Origin: Rhodospirillaceae bacterium
GTDB taxonomy: Bacteria > Pseudomonadota > Alphaproteobacteria > Rhodospirillales > JABHCV01
DNA length: 38,479 bases
Assembly (NCBI GenBank): GCA_014382375.1
Contig: JACNJU010000087.1
Coordinates: 1-38,479 of the forward strand
Direction of reading: 5' to 3'
How positions within the stretch are numbered: position 1 is the first letter of the stretch; every line of letters starts with the position of its first letter. The notes under the pieces were generated by a model that saw only the letters and a program-made list of their open reading frames with translations, was not told the origin of the DNA and searched no databases. Shown here one piece after another: positions 15,550-29,457 of the stretch. The position numbers and the translations under genes were made by a program.

Positions 15550-15562
15550 TACGTCTGAACCC

Positions 15563-15660
15563 ATCACTGGGGGGAGCTGCTTGTTAGCGGCTGAGAGGTC
15601 TCAATTTTTCGAGACGACCCCTTGAACCTGATCCGGCTTATACCGGCGTAGGAACGAGTG
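15563..15660 (+). promoter_or_regulatory. TPP riboswitch (THI element)
   Basis: The conserved THI-box blocks are present in order: GGGGAGC near 15571, GCTGAGAGG at 15590-15598, GACCCCTTGAACCTGATC (15616-15633) and the 3' block ACCGGCGTAGGAA (near 15642-15654). A short variable stem (GTCTC/GAGAC) lies between them. The aptamer binds thiamin diphosphate. The 3' block ends about 10 bases before the ATG of the transporter ATPase gene and contains AGGA, so TPP binding probably blocks ribosome access (translational control), the usual mode in proteobacteria. Confidence 0.95.
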
Positions 15661-15664
15661 AGAC

Positions 15665-16432
15665 ATGAGCCAAACCACCAATAAGTTGTCTCCCCCATCA
15701 TCAATCGGCTTGTCTGTGCGCGGTGCGCATCTGGCCTGGCACCAACAGGTTTTGTTTGATGGCCTCAACCTTGACCTTGCGGCAGGGCGCTGGACTTGCC
15801 TGCTTGGCCCCAGCGGTATTGGCAAAAGCATGTTGCTACGATTGATTCTGGGGCTCGACGGGGGACAGGGAAATTCCCAGACCATTACCTGTTCAGACGG
15901 CCTGGCGTTGGATGGGCGGGTCGCCTTCATGGCGCAACGGGATTTCCTGTATCCCTGGCTCAGTGTCCTCGACAACGTCCTGCTTGGATGCCGGATCAGG
16001 AATGAAAATGCCCCGGACCGCGACAAGGCTCTCGACTTACTCTCCCGGACCGGTCTGGCTGCTGTCGCCACGGCCATGCCCGACACCCTGTCAGGCGGTA
16101 TGCGCCAACGCGCCGCCATCGCCCGTACCTTGATGGAAGACCGCCCCGTCGTCTTGATGGACGAGCCGTTTTCGGCCCTCGACGCCATTACCAAGATCAG
16201 GCTGCAGGGGCTGGCGGCTGAACTTTTAAACGACCGCACGGTCTTGCTTGTTACCCATGATCCGCTTGAGGCCCTGCGTCTGGGTCACGCGATCCATGTC
16301 ATGAACGGACGCCCTGCCGTGCTGGGTGCGGCCATAGAGCCAAAACGGCTGCCGCCGCGCCCGGTTGACGATGTCGAAGTTCTGGAACATCAGGGCGAGT
16401 TGTTAAGACAACTGGCGGAGGCGGCGCCATGA
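15665..16432 (+). CDS. thiZ: ABC transporter ATP-binding protein for thiamin pyrimidine precursor (ThiZ)
   Basis: The product has 255 residues of the nitrate/taurine/HMP ATPase class: Walker A 'LGPSGIGKSMLLRLILGLD' (Ile replaces the usual Ser/Cys), Q-loop 'MAQRDFLYPWLSVLDN', signature 'LSGGMRQRAAIARTLM', Walker B 'VVLMDEPFSALDAIT' and H-loop 'LLVTHDPLEALRLG'. It energises uptake of a 4-amino-5-hydroxymethylpyrimidine-type thiamin precursor. The assignment rests on the TPP riboswitch directly upstream and the ThiX/ThiY partners. Its stop overlaps the permease start (ATGA). Confidence 0.9.
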   Translation: MSQTTNKLSPPSSIGLSVRGAHLAWHQQVLFDGLNLDLAAGRWTCLLGPSGIGKSMLLRLILGLDGGQGNSQTITCSDGLALDGRVAFMAQRDFLYPWLSVLDNVLLGCRIRNENAPDRDKALDLLSRTGLAAVATAMPDTLSGGMRQRAAIARTLMEDRPVVLMDEPFSALDAITKIRLQGLAAELLNDRTVLLVTHDPLEALRLGHAIHVMNGRPAVLGAAIEPKRLPPRPVDDVEVLEHQGELLRQLAEAAP

Positions 16433-22360: not shown

Positions 22361-22666
22361 CTACATGCGTTTTACAATTTTGGTAATACTGACGCCCAGG
22401 CGGTCCTCGATAACAATGACTTCGCCCTTGGCAATAATGTTTTCTTCGGCAACCAATTCAATTTCTTCGCCGACAAGACGTTCCAATTCGACAACCGCAC
22501 CACGGCCAAGTTTAAGAATCTGGCTAATCGGCATCAAAGCCGTACCAAGAACAGCCGTGACATCAACCGAAATCCCGTAAACGGCGCCGACAGTGTCCAC
22601 GTCGTCTTCGTCAGCCATTCCTTCTGCCATAGCTGCGGCCATATCCATTTCGTCTTCTTCAGGCAT
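22361..22666 (-). CDS. fliN: Flagellar motor switch protein FliN
   Basis: The product has 101 residues. An acidic Met/Asp/Glu-rich N-terminus is followed by a SpoA (FliN/FliM C-terminal) domain: 'VYGISVDVTAVLGTALMPI', 'ILKLGRGAVVELERLVGEEI' and 'NIIAKGEVIVIEDRLGVSIT'. FliN forms the base of the flagellar C-ring, controls torque and switching, and helps dock export substrates. No other recognised flagellar gene lies in the window, so the gene sits away from the main flagellar cluster, flanked by two paralogous small genes. It ends 5 bases before the next gene. Confidence 0.9.
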   Translation of the reverse strand: MPEEDEMDMAAAMAEGMADEDDVDTVGAVYGISVDVTAVLGTALMPISQILKLGRGAVVELERLVGEEIELVAEENIIAKGEVIVIEDRLGVSITKIVKRM

Positions 22667-26712: not shown

Positions 26713-27738
26713 ATGATGACAACGACTGTGGCGGGCAGCCTTCCAAAACCGGCATGGCTGGCCGAGCCTGAGAAGTTGTGGGCCCCATGGCGCCTGCAAG
26801 ACGAGGCACTCGTTGAAGGCCAGCAGGACGCGGCCCTGGCCTGGATAAAACTCCAGGAAGATGCCGGTATTGATATCGTCAGTGACGGTGAACAATTCCG
26901 CAAACATTTCGTCCATGGTTTTCTCGAGCACATTGACGGCATTGACTGGCAGCGTATGACCACCATGGGCATTCGTGATGATCGTTATGACGCCCAGGTG
27001 CCAACGGTTACAACTGCCGTCAGTCGCAAAAAATCCGTGCATGGGGAAGGTGCGAAGTTCTGCCGCAAACACACCGCAAAGCAGCTCAAATTCACGCTGC
27101 CGGGGCCAATGACCATTTGCGATACCATCGCCGACGCCCATTACGGCAGCCGTCCCGAAATGGCGATGGCCTTCGCGGCCCTCTTGAACGAAGAAGCGCT
27201 GGAGCTTGAAGCCCTGGGCGTTGACGTCATCCAGTTCGATGAACCGGCCTTCAATGCGTTTATGGATCAGGTTCCAATCTGGGGCGTTGACACCCTGCAC
27301 CGGGCCATCCAGGGACTTTCCTGCAAAACCGCCGTCCACATTTGTTACGGCTACGGCATTCAGGAAAACATCGACTGGAAGGAAGGCCTCGGCGATGAGT
27401 GGCGACAGTACGAAGAGTTCTTCCCGGCTTTAAACGACAGCAAACTTGATCAGGTTTCACTGGAATGTGCGGATTCGAAAGTGCCGATGTCGGTGCTTGG
27501 CCTGCTGAAGGACAAGGAGGTCCTGGTCGGCGCCATTAATGTCGCCAGCGAGACCATCGAGACGCCTGAAAAGGTCGCCGCCACCCTGCGCGCTGCCATG
27601 GAATACGTTGACCCGGAAAGGATCATTGCCTGCACCAATTGCGGCATGGCTCCGCTGCCACGCATTGTCGCCGAAGGCAAGCTCAAGGCGCTCGGGGCCG
27701 GTGCGTCTTTGTTGCGAAAAGAGCTCGGCGGCTCATAA
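26713..27738 (+). CDS. Cobalamin-independent methionine synthase core protein, MesD-like
   Basis: The product has 341 residues, about half of MetE: only the C-terminal catalytic TIM barrel. Zinc ligands are visible as His and Cys in 'AVHICYGYG' and Cys in 'CTNCGMAPLP', with 'VIQFDEPAFNAFM' in the barrel core. 'AGSLPKPAWLAEPEKLWAPW' at the start and 'EWRQYEEFFPAL' resemble, from memory, the bacterial MesD family, which makes methionine without a folate-binding domain and needs the partner MesX (DUF1852). MesX is not in the window. I chose the ATG at 26713 (AAAGGA 9 bases upstream). It ends overlapping the next gene by 6 bases. Confidence 0.85.
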   Translation: MMTTTVAGSLPKPAWLAEPEKLWAPWRLQDEALVEGQQDAALAWIKLQEDAGIDIVSDGEQFRKHFVHGFLEHIDGIDWQRMTTMGIRDDRYDAQVPTVTTAVSRKKSVHGEGAKFCRKHTAKQLKFTLPGPMTICDTIADAHYGSRPEMAMAFAALLNEEALELEALGVDVIQFDEPAFNAFMDQVPIWGVDTLHRAIQGLSCKTAVHICYGYGIQENIDWKEGLGDEWRQYEEFFPALNDSKLDQVSLECADSKVPMSVLGLLKDKEVLVGAINVASETIETPEKVAATLRAAMEYVDPERIIACTNCGMAPLPRIVAEGKLKALGAGASLLRKELGGS

Positions 27739-28623
27739 ACCTTCGGGAGGCAACGTGCAAACCTGATCGTAAGCATAACGTTCATTGATCAGGCCGTTGT
27801 ACTGGAAAATGTCGAGAGTCGCCTCGAACGCCTCTGGGGTGATTTCCACATGCGGGCTCCAGCAGCCAAGTTGCTGGTAGGTGGCGATGCAATCAGCCAG
27901 GGCCGCCTCGTCAATCGTCGGGAAATAAGGTTTTTCGGCCCGCGCAATATCTGTTGCCGGGGTTTCGTTCATGTAGGCGCGGGTTTTCCTGTAAGCCCGA
28001 ATGAAGGCCGCCGCCATATCAGTTTCCAGCCAGTCCCGGTTTGCCGCCAGGCTGGAAAACCCGCATCGGCCGATCTGCTTGCCAACTTGCGCCACGATAT
28101 GACCAATACCATCCGCTTCCAGTTGCTGCGGGAAGGGTCCCTGTTGTTGCACGTATTGTCCCTGCCCTTCACGGAAGGCCCTGTCTACATCGGCTGCACC
28201 ACCGGGGTTGATGGCGTTGATCCTGTCATAGTCGATACCTGCCTTGTGGCAAGCGTACTTGAACATGGCAAGCGGCTGGCCGCCGCCAAACAGTACCGCA
28301 TCTGAACCCTCTAGCTTGTCCCAGCTGAAATCAGGATCGGGCTGGCGGGCGGTGATGAAAAAACCGTCCATCTCGTTGACCTGGGCAAAATGCGTGGTGT
28401 CCGGGGTTTCGCCCTTCGATAGCGGCCCAAAACCCTGACTGAGAGCAGATTGAACAACATGCGCAGAACCGTCAGCAAGGGCCGCAATCGCCGAAACACC
28501 GGGCTTTGAGACTGACCACTCAGGTTGCAATCCTTCTGCCTGCAAAAAGCCCGCGGACATGGTCGAGATCAGCGGCGAATAAAACGCCGAAAACAGGGTG
28601 AATTGAATATTGATCGTTGTCAT
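27733..28623 (-). CDS. NMT1/THI5-like protein without signal peptide
   Basis: The product has 296 residues of the periplasmic-binding-protein type II fold, NMT1/THI5-like ('FSAFYSPLISTMSAGFLQAE', 'GVSAIAALADGSAHVVQSAL'). The N-terminus, 'MTTINIQFTLFS', starts directly in the first beta strand with no signal sequence or lipobox, and GGAG lies 7 bases before this ATG, so the protein is predicted to be cytoplasmic. No permease or ATPase is next to it. Alternatives are an enzyme (THI5 itself is a suicidal pyrimidine synthase, but its histidine/cysteine motif is not evident here) or a solute sensor. It converges with the MesD-like gene. Confidence 0.75.
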   Translation of the reverse strand: MTTINIQFTLFSAFYSPLISTMSAGFLQAEGLQPEWSVSKPGVSAIAALADGSAHVVQSALSQGFGPLSKGETPDTTHFAQVNEMDGFFITARQPDPDFSWDKLEGSDAVLFGGGQPLAMFKYACHKAGIDYDRINAINPGGAADVDRAFREGQGQYVQQQGPFPQQLEADGIGHIVAQVGKQIGRCGFSSLAANRDWLETDMAAAFIRAYRKTRAYMNETPATDIARAEKPYFPTIDEAALADCIATYQQLGCWSPHVEITPEAFEATLDIFQYNGLINERYAYDQVCTLPPEGL

Positions 28624-28763
28624 TTGATCTCCTGTCCGTTTTTCCCTTGGGCGGTCTGACAGGAACTATAGGCGTTTTAAACCCCTGTACAATGCTTCGT
28701 TCACATACGGTTCAGGCAAAATTTGCAACAATGGCGATGACCTGAAATCCCGGGAGTTTCGCG

Positions 28764-28946
28764 ATGATTACAAGAACAGTCCTGATGACCCTGATTTTCG
28801 CCGTTGTCATCAGCTGCGGTGCGGCAGCCTATGCGCTGATCAACAACGGCTCGACCCCAGGCTTCCAGTCCACTTCCTACGCCTCCTACGGATATGGTGG
28901 CGGCGACAATGATGATGATCACCACCATGACGACGATGACGACTAA
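28764..28946 (+). CDS. Small exported protein with Asp/His-rich tail
   Basis: The product has 60 residues. A hydrophobic N-terminal helix (about 5-27, 'VLMTLIFAVVISCGAAAYA') is either a signal peptide or an anchor. A Gly/Ser/Tyr linker follows, then a C-terminal run of Asp with three consecutive His. The tail resembles a divalent-metal-binding tag. GGGAG lies 8 bases before the ATG, a good ribosome site. The stop overlaps the cytochrome b561 gene by 11 bases, so the two are almost certainly co-expressed. Possible roles are metal or heme handling for b561, which is inference. The opposite-strand frame over it is a compositional shadow. Confidence 0.7.
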   Translation: MITRTVLMTLIFAVVISCGAAAYALINNGSTPGFQSTSYASYGYGGGDNDDDHHHDDDDD

Positions 28947-29457
28947 GTCTCCCTCCGGCAGGAAACCTAGCAAGGCCGAACTATCGTTTCTGATGGGATG
29001 GCACGGCCTTTTGTCAGGGGCCTTTCTTGTTGCCTACGTCACCGGCGAAGGCAGTTACGCCATGCACGTTTTTTCCGGTGTCATGGTTTTACTGGCCCTG
29101 GGCATTCGCCTGCTGGTCGGCCTGGGAGCGCCAAAAAACTCACCGCTGGCCTTGCCGACCCTCAGCCTGCCGCCCGCAGGACAAACGCCACCAGGTATTC
29201 GCGCCGTGCAGCGTTTGATCAATAACTGGATGGCCGCCGCCCTGCTGGTGCTGATTACCCTGGCCGCCCTGTCGGGCTGGTTTGCCCATGACATTGGCAT
29301 GGATGACGATTTTCATGAAGGTCTGGCCGAAGCAACCCCGGCACTGATCTTCGTGCACATCGCCTTCGCGGTGACCTTTCACACACTGAAGTCCCTGCCA
29401 ACCGGAACCGTTACTCGTGTTGCCGCAGACGTCATCAATAAAACCGGTAAGTCTTAA
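28936..29457 (+). CDS. Cytochrome b561 family protein
   Basis: The product is about 173 residues with four hydrophobic helices. Probable heme-ligand histidines occur in 'LMGWHGLLSGAFLVAY' (His23), 'SYAMHVFSGVMVLLAL' (His44) and two in 'LIFVHIAFAVTFHTLKS' near residues 138-148, the usual spacing of bacterial b561 diheme membrane proteins. It would move electrons between quinol and periplasmic acceptors. In-frame ATGs at 28927, 28936 and further upstream overlap the small Asp/His gene; I chose 28936. No separate ribosome site is visible, which supports translational coupling. Confidence 0.85.
   Translation: MTTKSPSGRKPSKAELSFLMGWHGLLSGAFLVAYVTGEGSYAMHVFSGVMVLLALGIRLLVGLGAPKNSPLALPTLSLPPAGQTPPGIRAVQRLINNWMAAALLVLITLAALSGWFAHDIGMDDDFHEGLAEATPALIFVHIAFAVTFHTLKSLPTGTVTRVAADVINKTGKS

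Follow-up and report, generated by a model that had tools for sequence, protein, structure and literature searches.

The locus considered here raises the question of what a 60-residue protein with a run of aspartate and histidine at its end does directly in front of, and overlapping with, the gene of a b561-type cytochrome. The initial annotation of the window (the whole 38,479-nucleotide stretch of DNA analysed here) saw in this tail a metal chelator, and in the pair of genes a conserved unit handling metal, heme or electrons. Based on comparisons with homologous loci, we propose that the small protein is probably a small cytochrome subunit rather than a metal-binding protein, since its membrane helix is conserved and its acidic, His-containing tail is not. 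The argument builds on the following features.

28752-28756 (+): GGGAG, 7 nt 5' of the small gene's ATG and likely the ribosome binding site for that gene (read directly)
28764-28946 (+): small gene (60 aa; N-terminal transmembrane helix and Asp/His tail), supported by ORF, pN/pS and profile
28767-28844 (+): conserved helix, residues 2-27 of the small protein (AlphaFold helix; one-sided conservation with 100-degree periodicity)
28845-28943 (+): variable tail of the small protein, predicted disordered, with the end HHHDDDDD (low pLDDT; length and sequence variable across 78 homologues)
28936-28946 (+): overlap of the 3' end of the small gene with the b561 start, 11 bases (read directly)
28936-29457 (+): gene of a b561-like di-heme cytochrome b, 173 aa, four membrane helices, His 23, 44, 127 and 141 (PF01292; alignment; model)

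The open reading frame at 28764-28946 (+) encodes MITRTVLMTLIFAVVISCGAAAYALINNGSTPGFQSTSYASYGYGGGDNDDDHHHDDDDD, and reading it against the b561 ATG at 28936 bears out the Asp/His-tailed 60-residue ORF and the 11-base overlap described for this locus. Starting b561 at either of the two other ATGs in frame (28927, 28894) would enlarge the overlap; taking the nearest b561 start codon throughout, the two genes overlap in 55/78 homologous pairs. The tail repeat had also been thought to encode a Met/Thr-rich N-terminus of longer b561 products, a claim that turned out to be a wrong-frame reading of the small gene's tail DNA. The longer start was thus rejected, also because the b561 frame of the congener G003 (L019) lacks the extension; there, a GTG start is possible just past the stop of the small gene.

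The small ORF is not a chance ORF, and its protein is under purifying selection. Between the window genome and G001, the closest pair, pN/pS is 0.061/0.325 over the first 44 codons, and between the window genome and G003 it is 0.121/0.59 over the first 26 codons, a pattern absent from the two other frames. As a control, any hydrophobic small ORF occurs at the same upstream spot in 55/566 other ORFs of at least 250 aa. Searches of family databases with the window protein gave no match in NCBIfam and none worth naming in Pfam, the best being MaAIMP_sms (E 0.12), which lies below its curated cut-off and is taken as chance. Further family members, seven against Pfam and four against NCBIfam, likewise matched solely below curated cut-offs; hits of homologues to PDGLE (E 5e-5, 23.5 bits against a cut-off of 27) and CbiN (E 0.002, 18 bits against 142) are also regarded as chance. 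Hence, the family has no Pfam or NCBIfam entry, and it is unannotated and undescribed apart from what may be a mention as "Orf1", to which we return below.

The partner matches PF01292 weakly (21.4 bits against a gathering cut-off of 30.1, E 2.3e-4). Its four histidines are invariant in 10/10 and in 21/21 aligned sequences and are, from the family, presumably the heme ligands, and the structure model consists of four long helices. A Foldseek search of the PDB with this model returned no match at E 0.001 or better, and the b561 alignment, used as a profile against PDB sequences, found a photosystem I subunit alone (E 0.01). In a second look, the best structural match was the E. coli superoxide oxidase CybB (5oc0), with Z 8.9 over 133 residues; at about 10% identity, and tied within 1 Z with cytochrome oxidase subunits and other helical proteins, this helical-bundle match is not decisive. 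For this reason, we infer quinol-to-cytochrome transfer from the SHP operons described below. E. coli CybB is not known to have a small partner.

The small gene accompanies one clade of b561 genes with near constancy. From 111 loci, 97 distinct ones were retained after dropping 14 near-copies, namely 83 of the clade (A1 score above 85) and 14 paralogs (A1 score of 85 or below), and the b561 tree separates the clade from the tested paralogs with full support. An N-terminal profile, built from 28 of the same loci that were later scored, detects the small protein beside b561 in 78/83 clade loci and in 0/14 paralogs, where the one chance-level match (L114, E 4.2) is a PepSY-like protein; a hydrophobicity scan made without the family profile had already seen the small ORF in most clade loci. 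Among the profile-negative loci, L102 and L113 show by eye a helix and a DDD-ending tail and were counted as having the gene. Three loci could not be judged: L022 has almost no upstream DNA, L099 is cut by a contig end with the visible piece ending in DDD, and in L082 the 5' end of b561 itself is lost. With three clade members added to the 83, of which L006 and L158 carry the small gene and L160, from a fragmented genome, yielded none, the gene is present 5' of b561 in 82/86 distinct clade genes, with one lacking it. Loci L001-L018, except L006, stay outside this count, as the same places are covered by later loci; L159 repeats L036, and L161, a paralog-like match, was not counted.

In 738 kb of DNA (15,109 ORFs, near-copies excluded) the profile has no match away from clade b561. 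The two-gene unit is thus conserved, and more widely than the initial annotation supposed, since the small gene was looked for before b561 in related genomes and found there. As regards the expectation that tail and frame would both be kept, the frame is conserved and the exact tail is not, though an acidic C-terminus recurs. A protein search of 60 relatives found b561 in 16 genomes, and a profile, applied to 297 genomes of the order with the best 11 candidates per genome scored, matched in 108, paralogs included; 23 further low-scoring places were left out of the locus collection. At E 1e-20, 4/385 genomes of a class sample match, the window's own among them, and 1/398 of a phylum sample, namely the window's own, which indicates that the clade is mainly confined to the order. 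The 20 named loci come from Rhodospirillales, Rhodospirillaceae, Thalassospiraceae, Magnetospirillum and kin, Reyranella, or are assigned just to Proteobacteria.

Upstream of the paralogs, a scan by eye of 13 loci (the 14th, L150, lies outside it) found a PepSY-like protein in eight, no small ORF in three and something else in two. A second conserved pairing is thereby apparent in L114-L126, with a PepSY_2 protein 5' of a paralogous b561 in 8/13 loci by eye. These pairs resemble ours in that a small exported protein is encoded just before b561, but they differ in carrying the PF13670 domain (3/3 scanned, E 6e-25 to 2e-29) and in belonging to a separate b561 clade.

What is kept in the small protein is the helix. 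AlphaFold predicts it from residue 2 to 27, with pLDDT about 90 in residues 1-20, followed by low pLDDT and no secondary structure. Conserved positions are K/R 4, M/T 5, G 9, L 10, A 12, A/T 13, I/V 16, A/G 17, A 20 and an aromatic residue at 23, and across positions 5-24 conservation, measured in 56 non-redundant sequences, has its maximum at 100 degrees per residue (permutation p 0.0004 at that angle and 0.002 when the best angle within 85-115 is taken), as a helix that packs through one side should show. The members of 27-29 aa that have no tail are conserved among themselves, which shows that the helix alone is kept. The N-terminus is positively charged and also fits a signal peptide, often with ..YA before a polar residue. 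A lipoprotein reading was rejected: VISC of the window protein is INC in G001, and a cysteine at position 18 occurs in just 4/78 proteins.

The tail, by contrast with the helix, ranges from none to about 140 residues, so that the 78 homologues measure 27-164 aa. It is rich in D, G, A, R, S and H, and 8/78 proteins (27-36 aa) have no such tail; on the b561 tree, the tail-less state changes four times, at least three of them on well-supported branches (loss about 3-4 times), and the acidic end changes 10 times. The tail alignment contains no conserved column and no conserved metal or heme ligand, and thus does not show the ligand pattern of a His-rich metal-binding protein. With sequence, length and His content all varying, the idea that the Asp/His tail is the essence of the protein finds no support, and neither does a role of this tail in handling metal or heme, though it is conceivable. 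The tail is not irrelevant, as it appears to be under some constraint. A DDD end is found in 30/78 proteins against 0.4 expected from shuffled tails, and 45/70 tails of at least 10 residues have two or more acidic residues in their last three positions, against 7.5 expected by shuffling. The motif [DNST][DNSTG]GY[LIVMA], chosen after looking at the tails, occurs in 19/78 against 0.3 expected by shuffling. We note that (D/N)xGY(L/I) recurs once or twice per tail, for example in L025, L033 and L070, and is absent from the window protein.

Acidic ends are shared with DHC-like proteins beside clade b561, 40/46 of which end this way (YEDD/YDDD). Polar C-termini resist tail-specific proteases, and the acidic ends fit a general property of the pathway's periplasmic partners, protease resistance or docking, without singling out a metal site. 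Two other accounts of the acidic end were rejected. The Asp codons do not represent a b561 ribosome site, as 16/45 acidic ends precede a b561 start that lies beyond the stop of the small gene. A link between loss of the acidic end and fusion of SHP with b561 is suggested by the raw table (fused non-acidic 20, fused acidic 7, separate acidic 38, separate non-acidic 13), but there are only four independent comparisons on well-supported branches, and these show nothing.

The genomic setting points to electron transfer. In many relatives, the pair heads an operon in which DUF1924/SHP comes next, as a separate gene or in a fusion with b561, and DHC thereafter. DUF1924 is related to 1dw0 (E 5e-20), which we take to be SHP, and to cytochrome c'' 1e8e (E 3e-19). 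When a fused b561-SHP protein was searched against plasmids, 13 records matched, through its DUF1924 part alone. The SHP operon and pathway have been described as consisting of CytB, SHP and mDHC/sDHC (PMC2909971). In the window, by contrast, neither SHP nor DHC lies beside the pair, and in the window's genus and about a dozen other clade loci no CXXCH-bearing ORF adjoins it within the 1.5 to 5 kb flanks covered. A CytB/mDHC-SHP-DHC operon does exist in the window genome, at a separate place. Of 12 operons of this kind, 11 were scanned for small ORFs and two have some hydrophobic small ORF upstream; the small-protein profile has no match in any of the 12 loci. Within the 10-kb locus of G003, the two genes that separate mnmA from the pair in the window and G001 were not found. 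As the pair is kept intact with and without adjacent c-type cytochromes, and with rearranged flanks, the small protein is tied to b561 itself and not to the c-type cytochromes. Of the proposed unit for metal, heme or electrons, the electron-transfer part hence gains a setting from the DUF1924/SHP and di-heme cytochrome c neighbours, and the metal or heme role of the tail is the part that gained no support.

In the window and in G001, the interval from mnmA to the pair contains genes for an NMT1/THI5-like protein (27733-28623 of the window, minus strand; PF09084, E 2e-4) and, adjoining it, a methionine-synthase-like protein. Elsewhere in the window genome, L141 on contig C165 encodes two close DHC-like di-heme proteins with unusual hydrophobic N-termini led by Lys/Arg-Arg.

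In the main rival to a membrane subunit, the N-terminus would act as a signal peptide that is cleaved off, leaving the periplasmic tail as the functional product, which would bind metal, heme or a partner. Many members do contain a plausible cleavage site (..AVYAQ), 40/41 proteins longer than 50 aa carry His and at least four acidic residues in the tail, and acidic ends and the (D/N)xGY motif are far more frequent than in shuffled tails. We nevertheless regard this reading as unlikely, as the 8/78 members with almost nothing after the helix argue against it, together with the repeated loss of the tail, the conservation on one face of the hydrophobic stretch, an alanine at position 24 that is not constant (48/76) and the lack of a conserved tail ligand. 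Still less probable is that the small ORF acts as a leader that opens or tunes b561 translation, with a product of little importance. The position immediately 5' of b561 and the overlap in 55/78 pairs would suit a leader; in-frame purifying selection, one-sided helix conservation and lengths of up to 164 aa would not, nor would the acidic ends found also where b561 starts beyond the stop (16/45).

It is highly improbable, finally, that the small protein works as a membrane sensor or regulator and is identical to Orf1, which accompanies the sensor kinase SK1 as a periplasmic accessory protein. Response-regulator and kinase-like genes are found divergently upstream in several relatives, and the SHP operons of Rs. 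rubrum and Rs. centenum are reported to begin with an uncharacterised gene, Orf1, homologous to a divergent orf1 (PMC2909971). The locus L111, in which the small gene comes first, before a CytB/SHP fusion, speaks against such identity: its divergent gene encodes a PepSY protein (E 3e-7) with an H/D-rich stretch of its own, whereas the small protein there has no PepSY domain, and none was matched by Pfam in eight small proteins. Judging from L111, Orf1 of SK1 would be a PepSY protein. The window pair, moreover, adjoins metabolic genes and not a kinase. We suspect that the 2010 paper grouped two unrelated proteins under this name, and it may have counted the small protein as "Orf1" (PMC2909971). 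A literature search that left most subscription journals outside its scope gave no other mention of a small partner of b561 or SHP; within the same literature, DUF1924 is named in two papers.

With moderate confidence, we therefore favour the small protein being an accessory single-helix, CydX-like subunit of the di-heme b561 encoded after it, with a disordered periplasmic tail. The helix would reside in the inner membrane, with the positively charged N-terminus facing the cytoplasm and the C-terminus facing the periplasm, and would pack against b561 via its small-residue face (G9, A13, A/G17 and A20), on or next to which M/T5 and the aromatic residue at 23 also lie. The cytochrome would carry electrons between quinol and acceptors in the periplasm, presumably SHP and DHC in many relatives, and the gene overlap would ensure that both subunits are made together. 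The tail may represent a flexible periplasmic extension of secondary importance, the acidic end of which may help docking of c-type cytochromes or block tail-specific proteolysis.

Single-helix small subunits are exemplified by CydX of cytochrome bd and, further, by CcoM of cbb3. The properties of this class recur here, i.e. one hydrophobic helix (predicted) in a short protein (60 aa), one type of cytochrome partner (82/86 clade loci against 0/14 paralogs) and a conserved helix face (p 0.0004, 56 sequences). CydX has its conserved residues on one helix face, an N-in/C-out orientation, a variable C-terminal length and one partner type (PMC4325964). The small protein shares with it the short one-helix architecture, the b-type cytochrome neighbour, the one-sided conservation, the variable C-terminus and the single partner type. 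There is, however, no sequence relation: the small proteins scanned do not match the CydX family, and the window protein lacks Trp and the motif YxxWxxG, the CydX motif being YxxWxxGx15E/D (PMC4325964). The arrangement is also different, with a four-helix b561 as partner, the small gene first and long acidic/His tails common. The SHP operons provide the second likeness, as many relatives have the pair followed by, or fused to, DUF1924 and DHC; they differ from the window's genus, where the pair lies away from SHP and DHC and the genome has its separate operon.

A tentative and rather doubtful extension of the subunit reading is that these proteins form an undescribed family of single-helix subunits, near-constant in one quinol-linked b-type clade that includes the CytB of many SHP operons. 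Tails with (D/N)xGY(L/I) and an acidic end would then serve as a tether capturing the c-type partner, and the stand-alone pair of the window's genus would constitute a two-subunit enzyme with another acceptor or donor, e.g. superoxide. If true, a near-constant membrane component of the presumed electron donor of the SHP pathway has been missing, which would change how the pathway is reconstituted, and a family would be added to the small one-helix components of respiratory enzymes, a group that annotation tends to overlook. The case also illustrates that the low-complexity tail that catches the eye in such a protein can be its least conserved portion.

Two further features of the window were observed. 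A 101 aa ORF at 22361-22666 (minus strand), within a stretch of small ORFs from 22.1 to 23.5 kb, reads like a FliN/motor-switch protein. At 15560-15672 (plus strand), a TPP riboswitch (RF00059, 71.3 bits) is positioned directly 5' of the ORF at 15665-16432.
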